Below, piece after piece: positions 5,670-39,176 of a stretch of 39,176 bases of DNA. The notes under the pieces were generated by a model that was not told the DNA's origin, did not search any database, and saw nothing but the letters and a program-made list of their open reading frames with translations. Location: positions 1 to 39,176 of the forward strand of contig JAKAAG010000008.1 in NCBI GenBank assembly GCA_021797085.1. The letters run 5' to 3'. A program made the position numbers and the translations under genes. This stretch comes from Nanobdellota archaeon (GTDB lineage: Archaea > Nanobdellota > Nanobdellia > Parvarchaeales > Parvarchaeaceae). Positions within the stretch are counted from its first letter, which is position 1; every line of letters starts with the position of its first letter.

Positions 5670-6143
5670 TTATGTGCTTTTTCCTGCTATGGTGCCGGTT
5701 GTGTTATAAGTAGCTTTAAGGCTAGATGACACATCTGAGTACTCCAGTACTGAAGCGAAACGAAAGGTCACCGCAGGAGCCGGACAGCTTATGCCTTTTA
5801 TGTTGATGTTGTAAAAATGGCCTCTTATTACCTGCATATTATTCAAATTAAAGGTTCCTGAAGTAATGTTGGAGCCAAGCGCAGACGTGAAGGTTATCTG
5901 TTTAAGATAACCGTACTCAACATTTCCTGAAAATAAAACCTGCATGCTGAAGGTCAGCTCTGTTGAATTGCATATAGCCGCGGATATTGAGAATGGAGAA
6001 AAGCCTGTAGAAGTCGGTGTAACGGATCTGCTTGGGCTGAAAACGCCCATTGAATAAAGAAAAACCATGACCACAACTATTATCAAAACCGCCCAGCCAT
6101 AAGTCATCATGTATTCTATAGCGGCTTGGGCACGTTTTGCCAT
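5670..6143 (-). CDS. Class III signal (pilin-like) secreted protein
   Basis: A 157-aa pilin/archaellin-like protein. A short basic N-terminus ('MAKRAQAAIEY') leads into a hydrophobic helix with Glu near the start of the mature chain, the class III signal cleaved by a prepilin peptidase (FlaK/PibD type). The motif 'EYMMTYGWA' is shared with the next gene upstream. After the helix comes a beta-rich domain containing 'TSTGFSPFSISAAIC', the same module seen in the 6327-6815 protein and in the partial protein at the right edge. It contains N-x-S/T glycosylation sequons. It is probably a subunit of a surface filament or a surface-anchored protein. Confidence 0.7.
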   Translation of the reverse strand: MAKRAQAAIEYMMTYGWAVLIIVVVMVFLYSMGVFSPSRSVTPTSTGFSPFSISAAICNSTELTFSMQVLFSGNVEYGYLKQITFTSALGSNITSGTFNLNNMQVIRGHFYNINIKGISCPAPAVTFRFASVLEYSDVSSSLKATYNTTGTIAGKST

Positions 6144-6326: not shown

Positions 6327-6815
6327 TTAGCTGCTACCTGTTCCTACTAAGGTTCCTGTTGCGTAATAAGTTGCAGTACCTGCAGAATTTTTCACACTAA
6401 ATGACAAGTTTCCTGGAGCACTGAATGCTATCCCAGAACCTGTGCAACCTACATTTGTAGCGTTTATTACAAAGCTAGTTCCTGTAGTCACTGTGGGGAA
6501 AGTACCCGTAGCAGTTGTTACGGATTTAGCCCCAGAGAAATTTAGCCCAGTTGGCGAACTAAGTGTAAGACCTGTTACCTTTGCAGATGTGGCTCCGCCA
6601 GGTAATGGTCCAACGCTGAAGGCTACCGCTAAATAACTTGGAGTGCACACGGTCGAACTTACTGTGAACGGTGCAAATCCGCTACTTGTTGCAGTTACGC
6701 TTGCTCTAGGGTTAAAAATACCCATAGAGTACAGGATTACAGCTACGATGACTATGATCAGTATTGCCCAACCATAAGTCATCATGTACTCTAATGCTGA
6801 CTGTCCTTTTGCCAT
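6327..6815 (-). CDS. Class III signal (pilin-like) secreted protein
   Basis: A 162-aa paralogue of the 5670-6143 gene. It begins 'MAKGQSALEYMMTYGWA', an excellent class III signal (cleavage after KG, Gln and Glu at the start of the mature protein), followed by a helix ending 'LYSMGIF'. The C-terminal beta domain is low-complexity, Thr/Ser/Gly-rich and contains 'TSSGFAPFTVSSTVC'. Two further Cys could form a disulfide outside the cell. The DNA encoding the signal helix is almost identical between the two genes, pointing to recent duplication or gene conversion in that segment. It is likely a filament subunit. Confidence 0.75.
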   Translation of the reverse strand: MAKGQSALEYMMTYGWAILIIVIVAVILYSMGIFNPRASVTATSSGFAPFTVSSTVCTPSYLAVAFSVGPLPGGATSAKVTGLTLSSPTGLNFSGAKSVTTATGTFPTVTTGTSFVINATNVGCTGSGIAFSAPGNLSFSVKNSAGTATYYATGTLVGTGSS

Positions 6816-6882: not shown

Positions 6883-7536
6883 TTAACCTATTGAAAATGG
6901 CAGATCAACGTAAATGCTGGGATTGCTGACGCTTGTTGCCACATAATTGTAGATTCCTGCAGGCAAAGCTATTGATTTTGTGTTTGCAAAGTAGGTGAAA
7001 GGAGAATTGCCTACAGCTAATTGCTTAATTGTTCCATTTGAAAAATCAAGTGAAAGGTTAACCTTTCCGGTAAATCCACCTATGAAAAGGTAATTTGGCA
7101 GGTTATCAGAATAGTTTGCGTACTCATAAGCTAATGCAGTATAAGTTGAATTTGTATACAGGGCAAGGTTTGACAGCCCGAATGACTCGTTTTCAGTGAG
7201 CATAGTGTTTGCTCCACAGGATGTTAAATCCTGTCCAGCCAAAAGCTTGCCACCGTAAAGAGAACTCTGATATATTATTATAACCCCATTAGAAATGTTT
7301 ATCGTGTAATTTTCAAAGGATGTAAATTGAAGCAATGGGAGGTATTCAACGGTTTGCAGGCCGTTGGAATCTGCAATTGAGTTTATGGAATCGGCTATCT
7401 CATTGCATATGCCGTTCATTTTAGAAACTGTAGGATTGCCTGCAGATATGTGCGTGAAGAAGACCGCTATGAATGCTATCAATACCAGAACAAACGACAC
7501 ATCTATAACGAATTCAAAGGAAAATTGCCCTCTCAT
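6883..7536 (-). CDS. Pilin-like secreted protein
   Basis: A 217-aa protein beginning 'MRGQFSFEFVIDVSF', a class III-type signal (basic residue and Gly, then Q-x-S-x-E) followed by a hydrophobic helix 'VLVLIAFIAVFFT'. The rest is a predicted extracellular domain rich in Asn, Ser and Thr with several N-x-S/T sites and few cysteines. It differs from the two downstream paralogues after the signal and lacks their 'GFxPF' module. The start is supported by a TATA element about 25 nt upstream, shared with the divergent gene. It may be a minor filament subunit. Confidence 0.65.
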   Translation of the reverse strand: MRGQFSFEFVIDVSFVLVLIAFIAVFFTHISAGNPTVSKMNGICNEIADSINSIADSNGLQTVEYLPLLQFTSFENYTINISNGVIIIYQSSLYGGKLLAGQDLTSCGANTMLTENESFGLSNLALYTNSTYTALAYEYANYSDNLPNYLFIGGFTGKVNLSLDFSNGTIKQLAVGNSPFTYFANTKSIALPAGIYNYVATSVSNPSIYVDLPFSIG

Positions 7537-13846: not shown

Positions 13847-13879
13847 AAATATTAATTAGTCTATCTTTTATTATTTATA
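13844..13879. promoter_or_regulatory. Interlocked divergent promoters
   Basis: Only 32 nt separate the divergent ATGs at 13846 (minus) and 13879 (plus). The plus-strand TATA candidate 'cataaatattaat' overlaps the start codon of the minus gene. The minus-strand TATA candidate, complementary to 'ttttattatttatat', abuts the start codon of minD. Each lies about 27-30 nt from the start it would serve, so the two promoters cannot be fully occupied at once. Confidence 0.45.
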
Positions 13880-14598
13880 TGCCAGCTAGGATTATTGTGG
13901 TGATGAGTCCAAAAGGAGGAGTGGGAAAAACGACCGCTGCCGTAAACATTGCCACTGCAATCTCCAACCTTGGCAAAAAAACGCTTTTAATAGACGCAAA
14001 TCTTGAAACGCCGCATGTTGCGGTTTATTATGGTTTCGTCGGATTCAAATACTCATTAGAGGACGTATTAAATGAAAGAACTAAAATAGAAGAGGCCATA
14101 TACACAGGAGACAACCCAAATTTCCACCTTCTGCCATCAAGGGTAGCAAAGAGCGGAACTGACAGATCCGCGCATAAACTGATAAACATCAATCTTTACA
14201 TAAACAAACTAAGGGATAAATACGATTTCATAGTGATAGACTCTAAGCCTTCCTATGACATAGAATTCATAAAACTCATAAAAGAGGCAAACAGCCTTAT
14301 CATATCAAATCCTGACATAACCTCAATAATAGAGGCTAAAAAACTGAAGCAGGAATTGGAACAAGCTGGAATAAACATATTAGGTCTTGTTATAAACAAA
14401 GTAAACACACGGATAAAGGAGCAGATGACAAAGAAAGAAATCGAAGATTTAACCAAGATAAACAATATCTGGGAGATAAGGGAGGACAACAAGGTTTACA
14501 ATGCCCTTAAAGTTGGGATTCCCTTAGTCATATCTTCCCCGAAAAGCTTTGCGGCAAGAGATATAAACGGCATAGCAAAGCAGATAATTAGGATATGA
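13879..14598 (+). CDS. minD: MinD/ParA-family ATPase
   Basis: A 239-aa P-loop ATPase of the MinD/ParA class. Residues 11-19 hold the deviant Walker A 'PKGGVGKTT' with the signature Lys. Switch I is in 'LLIDANLETPHV' and Walker B in 'FIVIDSKPS'. Archaeal MinD paralogues position or polarise surface structures such as archaella and chemosensory arrays, or act in metal-cluster delivery. A C-terminal amphipathic membrane-targeting helix is not evident. It overlaps the zinc-ribbon gene by ATGA, so they form one unit. In a window rich in pilin genes, a positioning role is plausible but not shown. Confidence 0.8.
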   Translation: MPARIIVVMSPKGGVGKTTAAVNIATAISNLGKKTLLIDANLETPHVAVYYGFVGFKYSLEDVLNERTKIEEAIYTGDNPNFHLLPSRVAKSGTDRSAHKLININLYINKLRDKYDFIVIDSKPSYDIEFIKLIKEANSLIISNPDITSIIEAKKLKQELEQAGINILGLVINKVNTRIKEQMTKKEIEDLTKINNIWEIREDNKVYNALKVGIPLVISSPKSFAARDINGIAKQIIRI

Positions 14599-15594: not shown

Positions 15595-16032
15595 ATGAAA
15601 GGACAGGAATCTCTAGAGATGATAATAATCTATAGCCTGGCTATCGCAGTTATAGGTTCGATATTTTATATAATATTCACATTTTTCCCGAGTTTAACCG
15701 GAGCCACAACTCAGCCGAGCTACTCTGGATTTCCAGGATTCCAAATAATACAACAGGGTTATATTCCGTCAAAATCTCTTTTTTACATAAAATTTGAGAA
15801 CCTGTTAAATGAAAATGTGAAAATAGACAAAATATCACTTTTGATTTCTGGGGTAAACTATACTGGATTTGTCTGTTCAAAAACATATCTGCCTGCTTTG
15901 CAGTACAGTGAATGCAATTTAACATCTGTATCGCTGGGGAGGTCATTCAATGGAAACGGCTTTATATATTATACTCCTACAAATATTTCCTCTTCTCCGG
16001 TGATAGCATCGATGGGAAATATAATCAATTAG
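15595..16032 (+). CDS. Pilin-like secreted protein
   Basis: A 145-aa protein with a class III-type signal, 'MKGQESLEMIIIYSLAIAV' (KG cleavage site, Gln and Glu at the mature start, hydrophobic helix). A mostly beta domain follows with two Cys and several N-x-S/T sites. 'FPGFQIIQQGYIPSKSLFYI' may parallel the 'GFxPF' region of the other pilin-like proteins here, without the Cys. It lies between tRNA-Thr and L15e and is probably a separate transcript. A surface filament subunit or relative is likely. Confidence 0.65.
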   Translation: MKGQESLEMIIIYSLAIAVIGSIFYIIFTFFPSLTGATTQPSYSGFPGFQIIQQGYIPSKSLFYIKFENLLNENVKIDKISLLISGVNYTGFVCSKTYLPALQYSECNLTSVSLGRSFNGNGFIYYTPTNISSSPVIASMGNIIN

Positions 16033-16612: not shown

Positions 16613-17122
16613 ATGGACGTTGAACAGTTTCTCTTCTTTGAAGTGCTTATCGGCATAGTTATAGCTCTTACCATGTTTTTCCTTTTCTACAACAATTATT
16701 CATCAATTTTTCCAGTGGGCTGTGATTCTGCAACTGCTCTGCTGCAAAACCAGTTTACAAGTGCAGAGTACGGATATGCAAACAGAATGGAGGGTACGCC
16801 ACTTTTCAGATGCTATGATGAAAATGCCTGTTATAATGCGGCAACGGCCGAGCAAACATGCATAAGACATTGGTGTTACTATGATCTTTGGACAAATGGT
16901 CAGGGCAGCGAATCTGCAGTTCAAGCATGCATAGCAAGCCCTCCTGCCAACATAACTAGCGCATGCAGCGTTGTTTCGCCTACAAATACTGCTGATTTAT
17001 TTAGTTGTTCGGAAAGCACTATCGTGGCCAATAACGCTACGGACATACAAAATTGTGCAATAAACGTTACAGCATGCATATCGGGGGACGGGCCTTACTG
17101 CCCAGCATGCGTAGCTCAGTGA
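16613..17122 (+). CDS. Cysteine-rich exported protein, pilin-like N-terminus
   Basis: A 169-aa protein. I start it at ATG 16613 ('MDVEQFLFFEVLIG'), because an AT-rich TATA-like element lies about 25 nt upstream and the extra 23 residues of the ORF-track start are basic and unlike a signal. A single hydrophobic helix (about residues 5-24) with Glu before it resembles a pilin signal. The extracellular part contains 12 cysteines, an even number, including a terminal 'YCPACVAQ', plus N-x-S/T sites. The family is unknown to me. It heads a run of four surface genes with 1-62 nt gaps. Confidence 0.6.
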   Translation: MDVEQFLFFEVLIGIVIALTMFFLFYNNYSSIFPVGCDSATALLQNQFTSAEYGYANRMEGTPLFRCYDENACYNAATAEQTCIRHWCYYDLWTNGQGSESAVQACIASPPANITSACSVVSPTNTADLFSCSESTIVANNATDIQNCAINVTACISGDGPYCPACVAQ

Positions 17123-17286: not shown

Positions 17287-18177
17287 ATGGAAGAGGGGAT
17301 ATTATTAACAATAGTTTTTGTTATATTTGTTATAATAGCGGGGATAATACTTTCAGTTGTTTCCTTTTCCATAATAACTTCCTTCGGCACCCTTAACTTC
17401 GGGATAAGCTGCTTTACTGCATTTACCCAGTACAAGATAGTCAACAGCTTTTTAGCTCCCTTTACAGGGGTAACTTCATTCTTCGGCTTTTCAAACGTAG
17501 TTGTAAGCCCAACGCAATCTGCACAGGTGCAAAAGGACTGCTTGCAGACTACAAACGTGAATGAAAAGGCAGCTGCTGACTTTGCATCCTCATTTTATAC
17601 TGAAGCGTCCTCTTGCTTCAGTTTATTTTCTGGAGGAAATGCAGGGATAGGATCACAGATCCTTTCTGCTAAAAATATAAATCAGATATTTAACTGCTAC
17701 AAAGGCGCTTTGATAAGCCAAAGCAATAACGTAAATTATTCTGCCATAATAAGTTATATCGACAGCAATTACAACGGAAGCTATCCTCTGCAAATGGTAT
17801 TTATAACAAATGGAAGCAATGGAAATGCAGCATATATAAAGCCATCTGACAAGCTTTCGAATTCCAGTTATACAGTTACTTACTTTGGCTACCCTTCTGG
17901 CGGAATTAAAAACTGCGAAGTAAGCTTCAAAGAGCAATGCGAGTACACTGCTCAATACCAGCAGCCCGCAATAAATGACTTATCTATATGTACATATTCG
18001 AATGAGACTACAAACCAAACCAGGGAAACAGTGAGCTCACTTAGCAACGGGAACCCATCTTTAAACATTGTAAACGAAGATAGTGGCTGCGATTACTATG
18101 TACCCTTATGTGGAAAACTCAGCAATTATATGGTATACAGCCAAAGCAGGGTATTCGTATGCATACCAGGTCAGTAA
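17287..18177 (+). CDS. Cysteine-rich exported protein
   Basis: A 296-aa protein with an N-terminal hydrophobic helix preceded by 'MEEG' (residues 5-30) and a long extracellular part with ten cysteines, many Asn/Ser/Thr and several N-x-S/T sequons. No known domain is recognisable. It shares its general plan (helix, then a Cys-rich domain beginning 'SCFTAFTQYKIVNSF') with the following 491-aa protein ('ICYVSSEFTNFYYN'), so the two may be distant paralogues. It is one base downstream of the tiny peptide gene, in the same operon. Confidence 0.6.
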   Translation: MEEGILLTIVFVIFVIIAGIILSVVSFSIITSFGTLNFGISCFTAFTQYKIVNSFLAPFTGVTSFFGFSNVVVSPTQSAQVQKDCLQTTNVNEKAAADFASSFYTEASSCFSLFSGGNAGIGSQILSAKNINQIFNCYKGALISQSNNVNYSAIISYIDSNYNGSYPLQMVFITNGSNGNAAYIKPSDKLSNSSYTVTYFGYPSGGIKNCEVSFKEQCEYTAQYQQPAINDLSICTYSNETTNQTRETVSSLSNGNPSLNIVNEDSGCDYYVPLCGKLSNYMVYSQSRVFVCIPGQ

Positions 18178-18239: not shown

Positions 18240-19715
18240 ATGGCAGAGACACCTGGAGAGAGCTTCATATTCATAGTTTTGGCGGTAATATTCATAATAG
18301 TGATAGTAGCCATTGCAGGCTATCTTCTGTTAGTTGGAGTCAACCTATCAAACAGCAGTATCTGCTATGTAAGCTCTGAATTCACTAATTTTTATTACAA
18401 TGGCCTGTGTGTATCAAATTTCTTCTGTTTAAGCAGTACACTTAAAGCTATAGGGATAGCGCCGCCGCTTTTCGGCTGCACAACTTCAACCTCCGGATAT
18501 GGACCTGGCTCCCAGCCTTCGCAGGTATTTTCAACCGTAGCAACTGACCTGACAAGCTGCTGGAATCAGTATGGCGCAAATCAAGGACTCACCGTACTAA
18601 CTAATTCGCCTGCAACCTGCTCAGTTATCGATGTCAATACAAACCAGAACATGACTATAAATAACCTTACCAATTACCTTGAAACAAATGCTTATACAAC
18701 GGAAGTAAGCTGTCTTAATCATACGGCCGTCCAATCCTGTTCTGATCCATTGACAAGCTCAAATCTAAATGGCTATTCGTGTGATTTAAATGACCCTAGT
18801 CTGTGTGAGGCACAATCATTAAATTATTTCAATTGCAGAAGCCAATCTGGATATACACCTTTTACACAAGGATACACAACAAAGTATATACCTTTGAATG
18901 GGTCAAAGCCACCAACGGCTGCAATGAACCTTTCCAGCTATCTTTGCGAGGCATCGCAGGGCTGCTCTTTCAACACTACGAAGGGAACTTGTACAACTCC
19001 CAGCGGAAACACTGCTTCATGCACGGATTTATACACAAACTTCTGTAATGGAAACAACTGTACTGTAGGTTATGACCCTACAACTGCTTCATACGAATCT
19101 CCCTCCTCTTGCGTATTGACGGAACCTGTAAAAAGCACGTCAATAATAAACGAATCATATGCAGATTATCTAAAACCGGGTGACAACGTAATATTCAGCT
19201 ATAAAAACGTGAGCAACCCTAGCCAAAGCGGATTTGTTCTACCAAACAGCAGCAAATCAATAAACAAGGCGCAAATATACATAGTTTACCTCAATTCGCT
19301 GGTTGGAACAAGACTTCCGCCAAACTCAATAAGCCTGCCAAGTGAATGCGAGCCAGCTACTTTCCTTAACAATTACCCTACTGCTGGGATAGAATATGAA
19401 TGTTCAAGGGCAATCGCATCTGGAATAGGAGCAAGGATTCTTGCGCCTTCAAACCCTGGATTAGTAGCTGGAGCTGTACTTGCGGGATTTGGAGCATCGG
19501 AATGCTTTAACAACACAATATGCAAAGATGATATTGCACCAAATGCACTTACATACACAGCAAAGCTTGCTTATTCATCTTTATATGCTACAGGCTTAGA
19601 ACAATGTGCGCAGTCTTTATTCTACTTCTTTACTTCTGTGCCTCAAGAAATAGGCATATCAAAGCCAAACTTTTTAGGGAGGAATTTAATTTACATATGC
19701 GCAGTAACAAAGTGA
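18240..19715 (+). CDS. Large cysteine-rich exported protein
   Basis: A 491-aa protein starting 'MAETPGESFIFIVLAVIF', a Gly-x-x-Glu-like pilin signal before a 22-residue hydrophobic helix. The extracellular region has about 24 cysteines, including close-spaced pairs such as 'FCNGNNC' and 'CEASQGC', and many N-x-S/T sites. A more hydrophobic, Ala/Gly-rich stretch near residues 390-420 ('GARILAPSNPGLVAGAVLAG') could contact the membrane. It matches no family I know. It is probably a disulfide-stabilised, glycosylated surface protein. The operon continues: the next gene starts inside its last 19 nt. Confidence 0.6.
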   Translation: MAETPGESFIFIVLAVIFIIVIVAIAGYLLLVGVNLSNSSICYVSSEFTNFYYNGLCVSNFFCLSSTLKAIGIAPPLFGCTTSTSGYGPGSQPSQVFSTVATDLTSCWNQYGANQGLTVLTNSPATCSVIDVNTNQNMTINNLTNYLETNAYTTEVSCLNHTAVQSCSDPLTSSNLNGYSCDLNDPSLCEAQSLNYFNCRSQSGYTPFTQGYTTKYIPLNGSKPPTAAMNLSSYLCEASQGCSFNTTKGTCTTPSGNTASCTDLYTNFCNGNNCTVGYDPTTASYESPSSCVLTEPVKSTSIINESYADYLKPGDNVIFSYKNVSNPSQSGFVLPNSSKSINKAQIYIVYLNSLVGTRLPPNSISLPSECEPATFLNNYPTAGIEYECSRAIASGIGARILAPSNPGLVAGAVLAGFGASECFNNTICKDDIAPNALTYTAKLAYSSLYATGLEQCAQSLFYFFTSVPQEIGISKPNFLGRNLIYICAVTK

Positions 19716-20164
19716 AAGGTGCAAGTGCAGTAGAGTATTTCATAGTTGTTATACTGCTTATCTCATTTTTAGTGATAGGTGTAGTAATTGCTAGTTCTGT
19801 CTTCCATTTTGCTATTTTCCCTTCGGGGGTAATAACAAGCGGGAGCGGCTCTCCGGTACCGTGCTCCGCAAATGTCACAAATGTAAGCACTGCTTCTAAA
19901 CCTAACACCTTTAAAATAACGGTATCAGACGGCAGCCCGGGATTACTTTACAAGGTATTCGCAAGCAATACTGCTAAAAGTCCATCATTATCAGTTATAG
20001 GCAATTACACTGCTGGCATAGACTCCTTTTCAACTGATTTAACTATCGTGAATCCCAGCATAAACACAGTCATCATAGGAAACACGTCCGGAAGCAATGT
20101 TTCCATAGATGGAGTGAAGTACTCGGCAGGCGGAACGTGTGAAACTGAAATCTTCGGCAGTTAG
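19697..20164 (+). CDS. Pilin-like secreted protein
   Basis: A 155-aa protein. I move the start to ATG 19697, giving 'MRSNKVKGASAVEYFIVVI', a clear class III signal with KG cleavage site and Glu before the hydrophobic helix; the longer ORF-track start would bury this signal. The mature domain is beta-rich with two Cys and several N-x-S/T sites. Its start overlaps the 491-aa gene by 19 nt and its stop overlaps the stop of the convergent Hef gene (TTAG). It is the last gene of the surface operon. Confidence 0.65.
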   Translation: MRSNKVKGASAVEYFIVVILLISFLVIGVVIASSVFHFAIFPSGVITSGSGSPVPCSANVTNVSTASKPNTFKITVSDGSPGLLYKVFASNTAKSPSLSVIGNYTAGIDSFSTDLTIVNPSINTVIIGNTSGSNVSIDGVKYSAGGTCETEIFGS

Positions 20165-21687
20165 ATAAAAGGATGCAATGTTCCATCCTGCTTTATTGTA
20201 TCTGGGTTTTCCTTTATGTTTTTTATTATCTTCTTCATGCTCTTCTCTCTCCTTTTCGAAATCCAATAATAGCCCTCATCGTTTGTTCCTATTGTGATAA
20301 GTATGAATATTCTCCCTGCAGAGAACCTGCCTACTCTTCCCCTGCGTTGAATGTTTCTTATCGCACTTGGTATCGTCTCATAAAACACTGCAAGGTCAAC
20401 GCCTTTTATCGACATCCCCTCTTCACTAACACTTGTTGAAACAAGCACATTGTACACTCCGGATTCAAAATCTCGTATTATGTTCACCTGCTCTTTCTGC
20501 GACAAACCCCCTTTTCCCTGGCCAATAAATTTTATCGGTCTTACTCCGGGTATCCTTGATATACTATTGTATATAACGTCCACAGTGTCCCTATACTGCG
20601 CGAACACTATGGCTTTTTTTGATTCATTGAAATGGTTTCTAAATATAATTTGAAGCTGCTTAAGCTTTGGGTGCTCCATACCGCTGTCCAACAGCTCTTG
20701 TGTTCTTTCCTTTATTTCGATGAACCTCTTATTTGAAGAGAGCTCCTTGTCAGTCTTTGCCTTTCCATTTTGTATTTTTTCCAGAAAGTTCAAAAACGCA
20801 GCAAGACTCTGTGTTGACAAAAGGTTATAAGCATGGTAAAGCTTCAAAATCTTTGAAGTCAATATTATCCCTCTGATAAGGTAATATGTTCTTTTTCCGC
20901 TGAACATCTGCCTTTGAAGGCTCTTCTGGAGCATCAGAATAGTAACCCTATTTATTCTGGCTTTCTGCACGTTTTTCAGAAGGCCGATTTCCTGTAATTC
21001 GCTTGTTGATTCGCTTATAAGCAGCTTTAAGCTGTTGGCAAGTTCAAGCATCTCCTGTGGAAGGTTAACCTTTATCTCTTCTATGTCTTTTTTCTGTATG
21101 TATGGAATAACATCTGGATCATCATCCGATCTTATTTCAACGTTGCTTATCTGCAGGTTACTGCATATTGTTTTTATCTTTTCCCGGTCTGATGCGGGGG
21201 AAGCGGTTAAGCCAAGTATGAGCGGGTGAAAAGACTGCTCTGAATAGGTCTTTGCTATCTTTACATAGGAGTAATTTCCTATTGTGTGGTGGGCTTCATC
21301 AACTATAAGCAGGCTGAAATTAGAGAAATCTATGATTTTCTTGCTCATGTCATTCTCTATTGTTTGGGGGGTTGCAAATATCAGCTGTGCTTCCTGGTAT
21401 ATTTCACTCCTTTTACTGCTTGATACTGAGCCGCTTGCAATTCCCTGAGAAACTGCAAGCAATGAAGAAAACGTCCTGTAATGCTGGTTTGCAAGTGGTT
21501 TTGTAGGTGCTAGAAAGAGAATCTTGGAAGAAGGGTATTTCTCTAACCTATAATCAACAAGCATCGCGCTTATTATCGTTTTTCCAAGGCCGGTTGGCAA
21601 TACGACAAGTGTGTTACCTGTTTTTGCGGTCTCAAAGATCTTGTTTTGATATTCTCTGTCTTCTATCTTTTCCTTGAAAAGGGTCAT
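20161..21687 (-). CDS. hef: Hef/FANCM-type SF2 helicase, helicase part only
   Basis: A 508-aa superfamily-2 helicase of the Hef/FANCM/MPH1 type, which remodels stalled replication forks. Motif I is 'LPTGLGKT' (residues 30-37), motif II 'IVDEAHH', motif III 'LTASP', and motif VI 'IQRRGRVGR'. The insert between the RecA domains ('DPDVIPYIQKKDIEEI') is typical of Hef. Euryarchaeal Hef carries a C-terminal XPF-like nuclease with HhH motifs; here the protein ends soon after the helicase, so the nuclease is absent or elsewhere. It starts directly at the GINS gene's stop (0 nt), so the two are coupled. Confidence 0.85.
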   Translation of the reverse strand: MTLFKEKIEDREYQNKIFETAKTGNTLVVLPTGLGKTIISAMLVDYRLEKYPSSKILFLAPTKPLANQHYRTFSSLLAVSQGIASGSVSSSKRSEIYQEAQLIFATPQTIENDMSKKIIDFSNFSLLIVDEAHHTIGNYSYVKIAKTYSEQSFHPLILGLTASPASDREKIKTICSNLQISNVEIRSDDDPDVIPYIQKKDIEEIKVNLPQEMLELANSLKLLISESTSELQEIGLLKNVQKARINRVTILMLQKSLQRQMFSGKRTYYLIRGIILTSKILKLYHAYNLLSTQSLAAFLNFLEKIQNGKAKTDKELSSNKRFIEIKERTQELLDSGMEHPKLKQLQIIFRNHFNESKKAIVFAQYRDTVDVIYNSISRIPGVRPIKFIGQGKGGLSQKEQVNIIRDFESGVYNVLVSTSVSEEGMSIKGVDLAVFYETIPSAIRNIQRRGRVGRFSAGRIFILITIGTNDEGYYWISKRREKSMKKIIKNIKENPDTIKQDGTLHPFI

Positions 21688-22263
21688 TTACACACTCTCT
21701 GCTTTTCCGCTTTTTATCAGTATCTGCGCTACATCCTTATCTATTTCTATCACATTCGGGAAACTAAAAGGCCCGTATGATTTATCATTTCTCCAAACAA
21801 ATTTAGGTATATCAGAGAGTATCTTTATGACGACTTTTTCGCTTTCACTGTCATTGCTCTCTACTTTCTGCAGTTTCTTTGGTTCTATTGATTTTACTTC
21901 TGTTATTATCCCTGATTTGTACTGCTTGGAAAGATTAAGTAGGTTGTCAAAAAATATTATCTCCTTGGAAAGCATGTTTGTCTTTGCCTGCTCGCTGTCA
22001 ACATCCAGTATTGCCATTCCCGCGATTTTAAGCATTCTTAAGTTTATTATCTGCTCTAATGTTGAGATTGCGTTTTTTATCTGTGTTGATATCTCCTCCG
22101 ATTTTTTCTCATCGTTCATTTTCTTTGCTTCTTCCAACGAGTTCTTGTTTATGGCTATGTATTCCTTCATCTCTTCAAGCATTTCATCATTGAACTTTGT
22201 CAGTGTCCTGTTGTCTTCCTGCTCCTGCCTTCTTATTCTTAGAAATTCGCTGTAAGTGATCAT
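21688..22263 (-). CDS. gins51: GINS complex subunit GINS51 (Sld5/Psf1 type)
   Basis: A subunit of the archaeal GINS complex, which activates the MCM helicase and bridges to GAN/RecJ and polymerases. The 191-aa protein has the alpha-helical A domain first, with the marker 'LEQIINLRMLKIAGMAI' (the conserved R-x-x-K-I). The small beta B domain follows: 'VVIKILSDIPKFVWRNDKSY', then 'YGPFSFPNVIEI' and 'AQILIKSGKAESV'. The A-then-B order identifies GINS51 rather than GINS23. A TATA-like 'acatttttatact' about 25 nt upstream suggests its own leaderless promoter. It is coupled to the Hef helicase. Confidence 0.85.
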   Translation of the reverse strand: MITYSEFLRIRRQEQEDNRTLTKFNDEMLEEMKEYIAINKNSLEEAKKMNDEKKSEEISTQIKNAISTLEQIINLRMLKIAGMAILDVDSEQAKTNMLSKEIIFFDNLLNLSKQYKSGIITEVKSIEPKKLQKVESNDSESEKVVIKILSDIPKFVWRNDKSYGPFSFPNVIEIDKDVAQILIKSGKAESV

Positions 22264-22295: not shown

Positions 22296-22457
22296 TTAAT
22301 ACGCATTCTTGAAGCCTGCCATTATTGAGGAGCTTATCCCTGAAAAAAAGCCAGATATGTCCTTAGAGAGCGCGGAGGGGCCCACCAAAAACAAATAAAC
22401 TAAAAGCAACGTTATCCCCAGAATAACGGCTATGACATAAAACCAGACAGATTCCAT
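22296..22457 (-). CDS. Tiny membrane peptide (53 aa)
   Basis: Absent from the ORF track. ATG 22457 starts one base after the stop of the preceding peptide. The protein 'MESVWFYVIAVILGITLLLV' has one transmembrane helix and a short tail containing 'FFSGISSSIMAGF'. It lacks the KG site of the other peptides but has Glu at position 2, like a processed pilin. It is the last of four overlapping tiny genes downstream of the 576-aa gene. The function is unknown. Confidence 0.55.
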   Translation of the reverse strand: MESVWFYVIAVILGITLLLVYLFLVGPSALSKDISGFFSGISSSIMAGFKNAY

Positions 22458-22458
22458 G

Positions 22459-22599
22459 CTATATGTTCGGAACTGTCGGTATAAGTTTGTGTATGGTGCT
22501 TGGTGAAAACAAAAAAAGATAGAAGATTATTATCAGTATGAGAACTATCAACGTTATTATTATAAGCAGTATGTAGCTCTCCACTCCTTTATTATTCAT
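22459..22599 (-). CDS. Tiny pilin-like membrane peptide (46 aa)
   Basis: Too short for the ORF track. It starts at ATG 22599 inside the end of the preceding gene. It begins 'MNNKGVESYILLIIITLIV', with a KG site, Glu two residues later and a long hydrophobic helix, then a short tail 'SPSTIHKLIPTVPNI'. This is a class III-like signal with almost no mature domain. It shares the 'MNNKGV' start with the next peptide upstream. Confidence 0.55.
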   Translation of the reverse strand: MNNKGVESYILLIIITLIVLILIIIFYLFLFSPSTIHKLIPTVPNI

Positions 22600-22762
22600 A
22601 ACCGCTCACGTTCAAACTGTTTGACTTTGATATGAATACCTTAAAAAGATTCGTAAACTTGTACGGCGTAAAAATCTCCAAAAAGATAATAATAAGTAGG
22701 ATTCCCACAATTATCAAAATTATGTACAGGAAAACGCCGCTTACAACGCCTTTATTATTCAT
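22592..22762 (-). CDS. Tiny pilin-like membrane peptide (56 aa)
   Basis: I start it at ATG 22762 ('MNNKGVVSGVFLYIILIIV') rather than seven codons earlier: the first seven codons of the ORF-track frame lie within the coding region of the peptide gene upstream. It has one long hydrophobic helix and a short basic tail. Its start overlaps the upstream stop and its end overlaps the next start (TATGAATAA), so it is translationally coupled on both sides. Confidence 0.6.
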   Translation of the reverse strand: MNNKGVVSGVFLYIILIIVGILLIIIFLEIFTPYKFTNLFKVFISKSNSLNVSGYE

Positions 22763-22932
22763 ATACCCTTGCCGTAAAGCCAACTAAATGAAAAAACGCT
22801 CGTCATATCCTTTGCGATTGTTGAGCCTGCCCCTGTGAATATTAAACCTATTATTATGCCTGCAAACAAGACTATAATTGCCAGTATTATCGCTATTATC
22901 TCGGTTATAGGCATCTGTCCCTTACTGTTCAT
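22759..22932 (-). CDS. Tiny pilin-like membrane peptide (57 aa)
   Basis: Missing from the ORF track. ATG 22932 lies two bases after the stop of the 576-aa gene. The peptide reads 'MNSKGQMPITEIIAIILAII': KG cleavage site, Gln at the first mature position and Glu five residues later, then a helix of about 22 residues and a tail with 'FTGAGSTIAKDM'. This is the best class III-like signal of the four. Its stop overlaps the next start by four bases. Confidence 0.6.
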   Translation of the reverse strand: MNSKGQMPITEIIAIILAIIVLFAGIIIGLIFTGAGSTIAKDMTSVFSFSWLYGKGI

Positions 22933-22934
22933 AA

Positions 22935-24665
22935 TCAATTCACCGAAAAAGGCGGCTTCCAGTTCAGAAGTCCTGCCCTTCTCTTAGACTCGTCATATAT
23001 GTATGCTGCATCTTTATCGGCAATAAACAAACCCATCTCAAGCGCCCTCCTGATGTCTGATGGTGTAAAGCGCTTTACGTTGACAAGCATTTCATATATC
23101 TCGGCCTGCTCTCCGGAAAGGCTTGCTTTGTGCCTTTCAGTGGATGAAATAGAAGAGAATGATTTTGAAATACCAGAAAAATCGTCCTTAAACGCCCTAT
23201 AAATGTCCATAAAGGCATAGTCCTTTTGTGGTTTCTTCTCTTTTTTCCTCTTTTCCTCTTCTTCATCCGCTTCTTTGACGTATTTGTCCAAATCTGCTTG
23301 GATAACGCTGAGAGAACGAAAAATGGCCTGATCAACAGCGGCAAACACTGTTTTCTGTATATTTGCAATGTGCGCCTTCTTGTAAAGATAATATTCCTCG
23401 GGTGTAAAGCAATATGGGAACATGTTGAAGTATATTGTTCCTTCGTAAGGGGGCTGAATAGCTTCCTTGCTTGGCTTTTCCTTAAAGTCCATCTTCAACT
23501 TTATTGCTAATATTACCAGTGGCCCGTACTTTCTAATCCTGTCATAAATGAAAGATCTTTTATTCTCTTCGTATCCCCTCGATATGAGATTGCCGGCTAT
23601 GCTTTTAGGCTCGACCTTTATGGGTATTTCCGGGCCTTTGTTTTTAAACAGCCTAACATACTCTGCATCATACTCCTTTGCATATATTGGTTTGCTCCCG
23701 ACAGCTGTAACAGAAAAGCTTTCATTCTCAAATATGTCCGGCTTGCTTGCACCTTCTATGTATCTGTCTGCACTTTTAGCCGTTTTTAGGCCCATCTTTG
23801 CAAGCAGCGAAAGATAAGTTGAGCACCAATCAACATATAGGTTAAACGAACCCATCTGGCTCTTAAGGTACTGCAGAAGCATGCTTTTCCTGTTTTTAAG
23901 GTCATTGCCATTTATTTCCTTCCATTTTTCATATTCAATGTACCTGTTCTTCAGTATGTTTTTATACTGCTCATTCCTGTCAATATTCTGCACATCCTTC
24001 AGACTTTTGACTTGGTAGAAAACCGACATTATGTCAATAAATCCTGGACCCCCTTGGCTTTGCGTCGGAGATCTTGAAAGCGCGGAAAGGCTCGCTCCTC
24101 CCTTTCTTGAATCAACATTGTCCAAAAAAACTCTCTTTAATGCGAGTTCTGCTGCTTCCGCTTTGTCCTTATCCGTGTCTTTTAACTCATCATACAAATA
24201 CAGGTTCCTTTCAAGTTCCTTAAGCTCGTATATTATGGCTATAAGCGATTTCAAAACCGTGTTTATGTTTCCAAGAAGCTGCATTACCCTGTCTTCAAGA
24301 TTCTTCCTTTTCTCAAAAACCATGTTCATCAAACTAGACAAAGAAGATGGGTCCACTGATTCTGCCGTCCTTATCGATCTGTAACCTAATGCCCCGAACA
24401 TCTGCATAACAGAGTAGTACTCCGGCTGAAAATGGTATCTTTTGTATATGTCCTTTGTAAACTTGTAACCTTCGGGATTACCAACGAACCCTGGATTTGG
24501 AATCTCCTCACCAGAGGCATACCTGAAATCAATCTCCCCTCTGTAGTGAGAGTCGCTGCTAGAGGCCCTTGCTTCCAGTTCATTTATCCATTTCTGTACA
24601 TAGTTAACGTCTGTTTTTGAGTCATTAAACTTCTTTGCTATCTCGCTTATCTCCCGTATGTTCAT
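22935..24665 (-). CDS. Large unknown protein heading the tiny-peptide operon
   Basis: A 576-aa protein that I do not recognise. It has no signal peptide or membrane helix and is rich in helices and charge, so it is probably cytosolic. Notable parts are long helices around residues 120-170, a Ser/Gly/Gln-rich linker near 195-205 ('SRSPTQSQGGPG'), an acidic-basic coiled stretch ('ADEEEEKRKKEKK') near residue 470, and a C-terminal region ('KRFTPSDIRRALEMG') that might be a small helical domain. No ATPase, nuclease or zinc motif is visible. It is preceded by a TATA-like 'tttttatatata' about 40 nt upstream and followed by four coupled membrane peptides. Confidence 0.6.
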   Translation of the reverse strand: MNIREISEIAKKFNDSKTDVNYVQKWINELEARASSSDSHYRGEIDFRYASGEEIPNPGFVGNPEGYKFTKDIYKRYHFQPEYYSVMQMFGALGYRSIRTAESVDPSSLSSLMNMVFEKRKNLEDRVMQLLGNINTVLKSLIAIIYELKELERNLYLYDELKDTDKDKAEAAELALKRVFLDNVDSRKGGASLSALSRSPTQSQGGPGFIDIMSVFYQVKSLKDVQNIDRNEQYKNILKNRYIEYEKWKEINGNDLKNRKSMLLQYLKSQMGSFNLYVDWCSTYLSLLAKMGLKTAKSADRYIEGASKPDIFENESFSVTAVGSKPIYAKEYDAEYVRLFKNKGPEIPIKVEPKSIAGNLISRGYEENKRSFIYDRIRKYGPLVILAIKLKMDFKEKPSKEAIQPPYEGTIYFNMFPYCFTPEEYYLYKKAHIANIQKTVFAAVDQAIFRSLSVIQADLDKYVKEADEEEEKRKKEKKPQKDYAFMDIYRAFKDDFSGISKSFSSISSTERHKASLSGEQAEIYEMLVNVKRFTPSDIRRALEMGLFIADKDAAYIYDESKRRAGLLNWKPPFSVN

Positions 24666-24821: not shown

Positions 24822-25907
24822 ATGCATCAAACAGAGAACATAAATCCGATAGAAGCAACTTTAAACAAGCTTTTTTCGACAATAGACGCACTTTCGTCTA
24901 AAATAGACGAACTTAATGAAAGAGTAGATTACATGGGCTCATTTATAGGTCTTGAGATCGGTGAAGGCGAAAACGCAGAGTCGGTTGAGCCTCCGGGACA
25001 GCTTGCAGGTTTATCCTTTGATGTCTTAAATAAGGTCCTTCCCTCTAAAGACGCAAACTCCATAAGGGCATATTTTTTAAGAGTTTTGAGCCTTTTCAGA
25101 AGGTACATAAAATCAATTGTAATATTTGGCAGCTCAAAAACAAAAACAGGTATGACAAGCACTTCTGATATAGATGTTGCATTCATAGTAGATGATACTG
25201 ATATACAAAAATTCACACTTGAACAACTAAGAGACCGGTTATTCGCAAAGATGGCTGAAATAGCAAGGGATTTTTCAGATAAGATACATGCACAAGCATA
25301 CCCTCTTTCTGAATTCTGGGGTTCAATAATAAAACCAAATCCTGTTATACTTACCTTGTTAAGAGACGGCGTAGCGGTCTATGACACTGGTTTCTTTGTT
25401 CCAATACAGATGCTGTACAAAACAGGAAACATAATACCTACAATAGAATCAATAAACGCCAACGTGGAAAATGCGGAGGGGCTAATAATGCTTGCAGAAA
25501 ATGTATTAACTACAAAGCTAAGTTTGGATCTTTACAATTCTGTAGTTGCGGCTGGCCAGGCTTTATTGATGGAATATGGGTATCTGCCACCTGTTCCAAA
25601 ACAGGTTGCTAAGGAATTGGAAGACATAGCAGTAGAGAAGGAAAAAGTGCTTACGCATGAAGATGTAGAAAAGGTCGATGAGGTAGTAAAATGGTTCAAG
25701 AAAATAGACCATGGGGAAGTCAAGGAAATCACTGGTGAGGAATTCGACAAAAAGCTAAAAGATAGCAAATACATTGTAGAGAAAATAACCTCTATAATAG
25801 AAAAGCTCAGGGAAAAGAAAGGGGAGACAAAACCAGTGATAGACAAAGATTTATTAAAGCAAACTGATAAGGAAATAAAGGACAAATATCTACAAAAGGA
25901 GGAGTGA
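24822..25907 (+). CDS. Nucleotidyltransferase with HEPN-like C-terminal domain
   Basis: A 361-aa protein. Residues 10-40 form a short coiled coil. Residues 97-200 are a pol-beta-type minimal nucleotidyltransferase with 'VIFGSSKTKTGMTSTSDIDV' (Gly103-Ser104, metal-binding Asp116 and Asp118). Residues 205-275 look like a four-helix HEPN-type domain, without the R-x4-6-H RNase motif. The Lys/Glu-rich tail may be unstructured. MNT-HEPN pairs are usually two-gene toxin-antitoxin systems; here both are fused and sit one base before rpl35ae, which suggests a housekeeping role in translation or RNA metabolism. Substrate unknown. Confidence 0.65.
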   Translation: MHQTENINPIEATLNKLFSTIDALSSKIDELNERVDYMGSFIGLEIGEGENAESVEPPGQLAGLSFDVLNKVLPSKDANSIRAYFLRVLSLFRRYIKSIVIFGSSKTKTGMTSTSDIDVAFIVDDTDIQKFTLEQLRDRLFAKMAEIARDFSDKIHAQAYPLSEFWGSIIKPNPVILTLLRDGVAVYDTGFFVPIQMLYKTGNIIPTIESINANVENAEGLIMLAENVLTTKLSLDLYNSVVAAGQALLMEYGYLPPVPKQVAKELEDIAVEKEKVLTHEDVEKVDEVVKWFKKIDHGEVKEITGEEFDKKLKDSKYIVEKITSIIEKLREKKGETKPVIDKDLLKQTDKEIKDKYLQKEE

Positions 25908-28627: not shown

Positions 28628-29323
28628 TCAGGGAACATTTATACACGTAGATGAATAATCGCCCGAATTATTTGGGTAAATCTCCACAATATAACGATTC
28701 GGTGCACTTGACGGCAGAGTAACGGTTCCGGAAGCATAACCTATGTCAGTAGTAGAAGTTGAACCAGTAACACTAGTTATATATTGTTCTCCTGCAGAAA
28801 AAACAGTTAGATTAAAAGATGAGCTTTTTAAGCCACCGGAATAATTATAAAAACGCAACTTATAAAAAAGAGTGTTTGAGGACATGGCATAGGATTGCTG
28901 AATATATGCTACTGAAAAATCAAGACCTATTATAGCACTGCCATTTTCACCCTTTACAAATGCATCAAAAGTTCCTCCGGATAAAGGAAGCATTCCTGAT
29001 ACATTTTCCGCAGGTTTTGACACGCCGAGTTCGGTAGTAGTCTGCAGCTTTATTATGTCACCGCAAAAGAAGGAATATTGTGGCTGAAGCAAAGAAACGG
29101 TAACTGGAAATGTCTGCATGGACCCTGGGCCCTGTGAAGCCACGTAATTAACTTCATTTGCAAGATTGTTTGCAGTGGTTGTTATCTGGCTAGCCGAGGA
29201 ACTCAAAGCAAATGAGCCATAAAAAAGCATAACATATACTACAAACGCGGCGATAATGCTTATACCGATGCCTATTACTATTACGTATTCTGTTGAATAC
29301 TGGCCTTTTCTAAGATTGGACAT
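28628..29323 (-). CDS. Pilin-like secreted protein
   Basis: A 231-aa protein with a class III signal, 'MSNLRKGQYSTEYVIVIGI' (KG site, Gln and Glu in the mature N-terminus), then a long hydrophobic helix. The extracellular region is beta-rich and Ser/Thr-rich with several N-x-S/T sites and two Cys. It is probably a surface filament subunit. It is transcribed divergently from a glycosyltransferase only 37 nt away, which may couple surface protein and glycan synthesis. Confidence 0.7.
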   Translation of the reverse strand: MSNLRKGQYSTEYVIVIGIGISIIAAFVVYVMLFYGSFALSSSASQITTTANNLANEVNYVASQGPGSMQTFPVTVSLLQPQYSFFCGDIIKLQTTTELGVSKPAENVSGMLPLSGGTFDAFVKGENGSAIIGLDFSVAYIQQSYAMSSNTLFYKLRFYNYSGGLKSSSFNLTVFSAGEQYITSVTGSTSTTDIGYASGTVTLPSSAPNRYIVEIYPNNSGDYSSTCINVP

Positions 29324-37835: not shown

Positions 37836-39176
37836 TTAAGACAGGCTACCTATTGTTACTGAAGGCATATTCCCGTTAGGTGGATAAGTTCTTGTATCTA
37901 ACCAAGTTACATTGACTTCACTTCCACTAACTGGGCCGCAACCGCCCCCATTCCTAAAAAGTATTGCCTTTAATGGTATGCTTTCAGGATTCACATTTAA
38001 TTCGGAGGTATAATTAAGCAAATAACTCATTTTTGTCCCGGTATTGATAAGAGAAAAAACATCTGTGCCGCCTATTAATGCAGTGCTATTATAAAAATCT
38101 TGGGCAGCTTGGCTAACATTTCCATACTGGTAATATTTCCAAGAAGTTGGAGAATTTTGCCATTGGGCCCATCCAGCGCTTGACCCATACTTTGGAGTAA
38201 TATTGTACCATCCTAGTATTGTCCATCCGCAATAACGAGCGGGATTTGAGATATAATTACCATTCCAATCAAGAACATTAGGCAAAGAGAAATTTTCCTT
38301 ATTATAATAAAATTCAACCCCTACTCCATTCGGGCTGTAATCTATTGTAAACCCATTATGAACCTGAACATATTTAGCTGTATCAGAGTAATTGGTAGTC
38401 CACCCCGTAGGATAAGAATTACCTTTAAAATTTTGGTAGTAATTAAAAACTACATTGCCATTGTCATATTCTCCATAAGTTGAACACTGAGCAGTATCGC
38501 TTGGATTTGAACAGGTTAACTGTGGCGCTTCGCCGGTATTAACCGAATTTAGAACGTTAGTAGAAGTTGAAAAGAAGTCCATTTCCACTGTAGCAGTAGT
38601 AAAGCTGCCTAACCTTAACCAGTAAACTACCGTTTGCGTGTTATTTGTTCCGTTCTCCCTCCAAGAAGGTATTATAGTGCCATTAGGATAGGTAAATTCT
38701 ATATTTGAAAGATTAGAAGCTGCATATGACTTGTAATTGTCCATGTTTATAACTGCCATTTGCTGGAATGGCGAAGGCGTTGTGGTTGAGGAAGTTATTG
38801 TCAATGGAAGATACTTTACTATAGGTTGCGAAGAGGAAGTTCCTGCTATTGTACCTGTTGAATTTGTTATTATGCTGCCTGCAGGAGTTGAATAGCTGTA
38901 CTGAAGCTTAGCTGATAAAGAATATTTTATGCCTGCAGAATTACATGCGACTGTAGGGATTAGAATTGTTGCTGTTTTGCCCGGATAAATTATTATAGGA
39001 GTTAGATTGTACTCTTTTGTTAAAGCTGTTGTGCCAGTATTTGAGGTTACATAGATTTTAGATATTGTTGCCGAAGTTGCTGTATCTGGTAGGCCCCCTC
39101 CTATTATTGCTACATAAAGACCTGCCGGGTTGCATATTGTTGATGAAATTGTGAACGGTGAAAAACCACTGCTTGT
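37836..39176 (-). CDS. Pilin-like surface protein with DUF2341-like domain (partial)
   Basis: The ORF-track start (a TTG at 38804) is artificial: the frame stays open for 124 more codons to the right window edge, giving 446 visible residues with the N-terminus beyond it. The new part begins 'TSSGFSPFTISSTICNPAG', matching the module found after the class III signal in the pilin-like proteins at 5670-6143 and 6327-6815, so an 'EYMMTYGWA'-type signal is expected just outside. The C-terminal 300 residues ('PFQQMAVINMDNYKSY', 'NIEFTYPNGTIIPSW', 'VVYWLRL') resemble DUF2341, a beta-sandwich often on adhesins. It has many N-x-S/T sites. Confidence 0.7.
   Translation of the reverse strand, partial: TSSGFSPFTISSTICNPAGLYVAIIGGGLPDTATSATISKIYVTSNTGTTALTKEYNLTPIIIYPGKTATILIPTVACNSAGIKYSLSAKLQYSYSTPAGSIITNSTGTIAGTSSSQPIVKYLPLTITSSTTTPSPFQQMAVINMDNYKSYAASNLSNIEFTYPNGTIIPSWRENGTNNTQTVVYWLRLGSFTTATVEMDFFSTSTNVLNSVNTGEAPQLTCSNPSDTAQCSTYGEYDNGNVVFNYYQNFKGNSYPTGWTTNYSDTAKYVQVHNGFTIDYSPNGVGVEFYYNKENFSLPNVLDWNGNYISNPARYCGWTILGWYNITPKYGSSAGWAQWQNSPTSWKYYQYGNVSQAAQDFYNSTALIGGTDVFSLINTGTKMSYLLNYTSELNVNPESIPLKAILFRNGGGCGPVSGSEVNVTWLDTRTYPPNGNMPSVTIGSLS

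Follow-up and report, generated by a model that had tools for sequence, protein, structure and literature searches.

Tiny pilin-like peptides beside a conserved 576-aa protein in Parvarchaeaceae as probable components of a type-IV-filament-like machine of Nanoarchaeota

A stretch of 39,176 nucleotides of a Nanobdellota archaeon of the family Parvarchaeaceae (contig JAKAAG010000008.1 of assembly GCA_021797085.1, positions 1 to 39,176, hereafter the window) encodes a protein of 576 aa, here called BIG, followed by four very small hydrophobic peptides, P1-P4. This arrangement raises the question of whether the five genes form one functional unit, i.e., a small self-contained filament or secretion machine with BIG as its cytosolic platform as suggested in the initial annotation of this DNA, or whether the peptides belong to a machine encoded elsewhere in the genome.

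All five ORFs lie on the minus strand between 22296 and 24665, as previously described. BIG (22935..24665) is followed by P1 (22759..22932, 57 aa), P2 (22592..22762, 56 aa), P3 (22459..22599, 46 aa) and P4 (22296..22457, 53 aa), with the peptide lengths counted from the ATG starts. The genes touch or overlap along the whole run, also as described, with a gap of 2 nt between BIG and P1, overlaps of 4 nt (ATGA) between P1 and P2 and of 8 nt between P2 and P3, and a gap of 1 nt between P3 and P4. The run exceeds these five genes. The co-directional GINS51 gene (21688..22263, minus strand; Gins51_C of Pfam, E 4.6e-9) starts 32 nt downstream of P4 and is abutted by the last gene of the run, a Hef-type helicase recognized by its sequence motifs (20161..21687, minus strand).

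P1, P2 and P3 are headless pilin-like peptides starting with the class III-like sequence M-N-(N/S)-K-G reported for three of the four, i.e., MNSKG/QMPITE...SFSWLYGKGI in P1, MNNKG/VVSG...FTPYKFT... in P2 and MNNKG/VESY... in P3 (the slash marks the putative cleavage site), while P4 starts with MESVWFY and is of the KG/ITEATIYY type in relatives. Kyte-Doolittle hydropathy bears out that each peptide is one strongly hydrophobic helix (17-residue mean of 2.9-3.9 in relatives), and the N-terminal hydrophobic helix of ~20 residues of type IV pilins is thus present in the peptides. Past the helix there are only ~12-25 residues per peptide, and the globular extracellular head of type IV pilins is absent. 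The peptides also gave a few Pfam matches, among them oleosin and GP41 (E 0.03-0.8), which were set aside, as they reflect hydrophobic composition only, and no sequence match to the small pilin families of methanogens was found in Pfam or NCBIfam. Alignments among P2, P3 and P4 with hhalign (probabilities of 97-98, uncorrected for shared hydrophobicity) hint at paralogy, of which we make no claim.

We compared loci from 32 genomes of the family, 31 of which were profiled after omission of one near-duplicate genome. P1 was detected by profile search in all 32 genomes (E 1e-13 to 1e-32), P1-P4 were all present in 31 of 31 profiled loci, and the pooled pN/pS relative to the window was 0.10 for P1, 0.13 for P2, 0.12 for P3 and 0.16 for P4. 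Considering this family-wide presence, the pN/pS of 0.10-0.16, and the rarity of comparable tiny peptides in control loci (0.04 per 6.5 kb of strand), we conclude that P1-P4 are real, conserved genes under purifying selection and not chance ORFs. A fifth tiny peptide, overlooked in the initial annotation, was found between the genes of two larger proteins described below, B171 and B296 (P0, 17124-17285, plus strand; MDKKG/SVEWRLIWIIL...). It is present in 23 of the 31 family loci, the flank being missing in several of the remaining ones. Genes of this type are easily missed by gene callers and class-III-signal predictors because they encode only 40-70 aa.

K/R-G/A/S precedes the helix in 23/23 copies of P0, 31/31 of P1, 27/31 of P2, 30/31 of P3 and 16/31 of P4. 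The K/R-G/A motif is absent from four P2 copies and from P4 of the window's own clade, in which the P4 leader has been lost and the peptide begins with MEx. Besides, the acidic residue does not occupy the canonical +5 position but stands at +3 in P0 and in many copies of P2-P4 and at +6 in P1; in all six canonical pilins of the window it is at +5. Due to this displacement, the peptides do not show the full set of type IV pilin features; they are pilin-like, yet without every defining character of the class.

The linkage of the peptides to BIG has a narrower distribution than the peptides themselves. P1-P4 are located behind BIG in 26 of the 32 family genomes, covering most of one genus. In the two outgroup genera (G001, G002, G003 and G031) and in two further genomes (G013 and G014), they are located behind B491 and a pilin gene, from which ~8-42 nt separate them, and BIG is found elsewhere, all in fragmented metagenome assemblies in which absence from a contig is weak evidence. 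The ancestral order pieced together from the outgroup genera is B171-P0-B296-B491-pilin-P1-P2-P3-P4-GINS51-Hef. In a tree of BIG, which has modest support near its base and groups one BIG-adjacent genome with G013, the two arrangements need two changes, and the B491 arrangement occurs in all outgroups. On the simplest reading of these gene orders, the P1-P4-GINS51-Hef segment, with the Hef-type helicase moving along, was inverted within the genus, possibly with one reversal. The linkage to BIG is thus derived, and BIG and the peptides may now share one transcript. As the outgroups keep P1-P4 with B491 and the pilin, and BIG apart, BIG is not the ancestral partner of the peptides. The initial annotation had looked to related genomes for both the peptides and their linkage to BIG. 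The peptides proved to be conserved throughout, while the linkage breaks down in the outgroup genera and in G013/G014, which leaves the idea of a single conserved functional unit of five genes unsupported.

BIG itself is a cytosolic protein of a Nanoarchaeota-wide family, which we judge to lie outside the filament machine. In agreement with the first description, it has no recognizable domain and no membrane segment: no match was obtained in Pfam, NCBIfam, PHROG or PADLOC, Pfam and hydropathy revealed no P-loop ATPase or multi-spanning domain, and profile searches of the PDB with two BIG alignments were without a match. Structure prediction, the other check envisaged at the outset, yielded a model (AF2, alignment of 31 sequences; pLDDT 71, pTM 0.53) but no fold assignment, with nothing below E 0.05 in a Foldseek search of the PDB. 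Three viral structure matches with E below 0.001 were dropped, their TM-scores being ≤0.17.

The gene is present in 315 of 371 genomes of the phylum. Among 20 BIG loci of other families, a gene for a xylose-isomerase-like TIM-barrel protein follows BIG in 17 and a nucleotidyltransferase (NTase) gene does so in 13, and no peptide, filament-type ATPase or platform gene was found in these 20 loci. In the genome of the window, another contig (C3) carries the TIM barrel together with a second NTase, and one NTase-like gene still lies divergent beside BIG (24822..25907, plus strand; Pfam Polbeta E 1.3e-4, under the cut-off). Its homologues are those downstream of BIG in the 13 loci, and it is part of BIG's own module. 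BIG-Y-Z-NTase, with Z as the TIM-barrel protein, is a near-universal, uncharacterized module of Nanoarchaeota (L104-L123 and the window). Z carries a conserved C-terminal SGTPMS/GTPNQ-like motif, and its TIM-barrel end matches the solved MJ1311 protein. One bin contained two BIG copies (G030:C94 and G030:C41), one of them partly matched, and is probably a mixed bin. Regarding a phage or defence origin of BIG, the peptides or the B proteins, PADLOC and PHROG gave no convincing match, the NTase similarity being only that expected between nucleotidyltransferases.

BIG could have been taken on later, in Parvarchaeum, to serve the pilus machine as an accessory factor in the cytosol, so that the linkage, while derived, would be functional. 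The persistence of the adjacency over most of the genus, down to ~45% identity of BIG, points in this direction. However, GINS51, Hef, NTase and L35Ae generally keep their order over this span too in these small genomes, so that the kept adjacency of BIG says little. Considering also that BIG is near-universal in lineages without adjoining peptides, we regard such a recruitment as unlikely.

The homologues of B491 outside the family point instead to a different partner of the peptides. They led to G316, G335, G102 and G173, and in G316 and G335 an ATPase gene (751-761 aa) is followed by the genes of the platform (683-690 aa), B171, a B296-like protein, B491, P1 and P4 and then by more small pilins. 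The order is similar in G173, and the contig of G102 begins inside the cluster. In the window's genome, an ATPase of 746 aa and a platform protein of 705 aa are encoded by adjacent genes on another contig, C27, and are 51-53% and 35-36% identical, respectively, to the proteins of the other families. The initial annotation had noted that no PilB-type ATPase or PilC/TadC protein is near the peptides; in the genome, such an ATPase and a candidate for the platform are present on C27. The ATPase is supported by a T2SSE match (E 4e-17) and by matches to the solved archaeal type II secretion ATPase 2oap and to CpaF and FlaI chains. The platform candidate, directly after it, has 8 predicted membrane segments and belongs to a family found in 361 of the 371 phylum genomes. 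It has no T2SSF match of its own, the G335 homologue has a sub-threshold one (E 6e-4), and weak T2SSF stretches occur in further relatives, three of which rise above the cut-off once joined. A single prepilin peptidase match was found in the genome (peptidase A24 gene, G000:C17). Just upstream of the C27 ATPase lies a subtilase-like gene (L211:6029-7837; Pfam S8, E 3e-9), in place of which G002 has one 806-aa protein.

Tiny peptides, defined as 36-75 aa with K/R-G/A and a hydrophobic helix, were also counted behind the platform gene in 23 loci of 22 families, hand-chosen for family diversity and including three already known to carry B491. At least one such peptide was present in 17 of these 23 loci, and over the 145 kb scanned, 37 were on the same strand as the platform gene and 1 on the opposite strand. 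The rate was 1.66 per 6.5 kb behind the platform versus 0.04 in the control BIG loci, i.e., a ~40-fold difference. Across families, the homology of P1 and P4 is supported by weak matches in some loci (E 1e-3 to 1e-10), and scores for such hydrophobic sequences are unreliable. Small pilins starting with K-A/G-QGLP(I/L/M)-N/T-T-I-V also recur behind the platform in many Nanoarchaeota loci (L247-L262 and others), and they may be the major pilins of the platform-gene machine.

Based on the synteny in other families and on their conservation, we assign P0-P4 to the C27-type, type-IV-filament-like machine of Nanoarchaeota, to which they probably belong. This agrees with the earlier proposal of pilin-like peptides working in a filament or secretion machine, as their homologues stand behind an ATPase and a platform in other families. 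On the other hand, the ATPase and platform genes of Parvarchaeota are on other contigs than the peptide cluster, and the assignment runs through the gene order of the other families.

The window encodes further candidate components of this machine. B171 (16613..17122, plus strand), a Cys-containing protein with an N-terminal membrane helix, is a conserved neighbour of the peptides, and its homologues lie right behind the platform gene in L209 and L207. B296 (17287..18177, plus strand) is a large protein, likewise with an N-terminal membrane helix, and B491 (18240..19715, plus strand) is Cys-rich, with an N-terminal helix and many invariant cysteines (alignments A2/A7). The AF2 model of B491 (pLDDT 76, Cys-rich core near 90) gave no fold match among PDB structures, and its core is possibly a new extracellular fold. 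Next to it is the canonical class III pilin gene pilin186 (19697..20164, plus strand; KVKG/ASAVEYF, E at +5), located directly upstream of P1 in the outgroup genera, and p145 (15595..16032, plus strand; MKG/QESLEMII), also canonical and class III pilin-like, is a conserved neighbour of the cluster. Four more canonical class III pilin-like genes with E at +5 and no Pfam match lie on the minus strand (5670-6143, 6327-6815, 6883-7536 and 28628-29323). A gene guessed to encode a DUF2341-type adhesin (37836-38804) received no support from Pfam. A MinD/ParA-family ATPase (13879-14598, plus strand) lies close to the pilin cluster, and one is also found beside P0 in G003 (L204:10124-10843); some archaeal pilus loci are known to have MinD-family ATPases nearby (PMC4858521).

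A second, separate type IV pilus locus of the genome, at C29, consists of a 507-aa ATPase, two TadC-like proteins and canonical pilins of its own. Since the C29 type occurs in most family genomes and ATPase/TadC sets can share pilins, as argued by Makarova et al. 2016 (PMC4858521), the peptides could serve this system, but with its own pilins in place, no tiny peptide at the locus in the window's genome or at the matching G002 locus, and the clustering of tiny peptides with the C27 type in other families, this is distinctly unlikely. For the peptides, we consider a role as small membrane regulators, as toxins or as subunits of transporters, without a tie to pili, very unlikely: the lack of a globular domain, the acidic residue off +5 and the loss of the P4 leader in one clade would suit such a role, whereas their recurrence behind the ATPase and platform in many families, the conserved K/R-G/A and an ordered set of four kept across the whole family speak against it. 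Finally, the original proposal of BIG as the cytosolic platform of a self-contained machine with P1-P4, attractive for the tight overlapping junctions and the adjacency in most of the family, is very improbable given the separation of BIG from P1-P4 in the outgroup genera and G013/G014, where the peptides stay with B491 and the pilin, its company of TIM barrel and NTase without peptides elsewhere, and the existence of a proper ATPase and a candidate platform in the genome.

Within the C27-type machine, we slightly favour a scheme in which P0-P4 are peptidase-cleaved, headless pilin-like subunits of a filament, in its base, core or tip, with B171, B296 and B491 exposed. After insertion in the membrane, the short K/R-rich N-terminus of each peptide would face the cytoplasm, and the prepilin peptidase would cut after K/R-G/A, removing ~3-8 residues. 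The two C27 proteins, i.e., the FlaI/CpaF-type ATPase and the ~700-aa platform, would then lift the peptides from the membrane along with the canonical pilins and the Cys-rich, helix-anchored B171, B296 and B491. In a short filament or tip complex, the bare helices would be packed in the base or core, and the B proteins would form the surface part. BIG stands outside this scheme as a separate core protein (BIG-Y-TIM barrel-NTase) brought adjacent by the inversion. A more specific idea, in which Nanoarchaeota have in common a filament or host-contact conduit with a core made largely of the fixed P0-P4 set and not of one headed major pilin, as a hetero-oligomeric bare-helix filament driven by the FlaI/CpaF-type ATPase, is doubtful and offered tentatively.

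Among known systems, the mature bacterial Flp (Tad) pilin is ~50 residues long and essentially one helix, has E at +5 and serves alone as the abundant major pilin. The P peptides are similarly close to a single helix but, unlike Flp, form a fixed ordered set of different peptides. FlaF and FlaG of the archaellum are small accessory pilin-like proteins with an N-terminal helix and a folded extracellular domain. They share with the present case the N-terminal helix and the occurrence of small pilin-like proteins near an ATPase and a platform; no archaellum gene set was seen at the present locus. The Epd-type minor pilins and ~70-aa major pilins of methanogens (Clade 1; PMC4858521, PMC3875500) are also very small and carry a class III site, with several of them in each locus and a MinD-family ATPase nearby, but there each system has two TadC-like proteins. 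With archaeal type IV pili in general (PMC4858521), the machine shares a T2SSE/FlaI-type ATPase, a multi-spanning candidate for a FlaJ/TadC-like platform, a prepilin peptidase and class-III-like N-termini, and it differs in that many subunits are bare helices of 40-70 aa and in its large Cys-rich proteins of the B171/B296/B491 type, which have no database match.

According to Makarova, Koonin and Albers 2016 (PMC4858521), clade 4F ATPases, found in nanoarchaea, often have a Cys-rich N-terminal domain, and their cognate pilins escaped identification in nanoarchaea. Cys-containing segments open the ATPases of G335 and G173, though not that of the window's genome, and hint at a possible kinship with clade 4F. 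A 2023 study of Parvarchaeales mentions pilins of the PilA family and, for one genome, genes of the archaellum, and the C27-type machine is not mentioned there (PMC10134863). Our literature search, covering open-licence papers, found no description of the peptides P0-P4.

Overall, the P peptides and the B proteins are candidate pilins for the nanoarchaeal ATPase clade that was left without them in the 2016 census, and BIG marks a second near-universal, uncharacterized operon of Nanoarchaeota. A machine whose platform is present in 361 of 371 Nanoarchaeota genomes may bear on the attachment of DPANN archaea to the other cells on which they depend.
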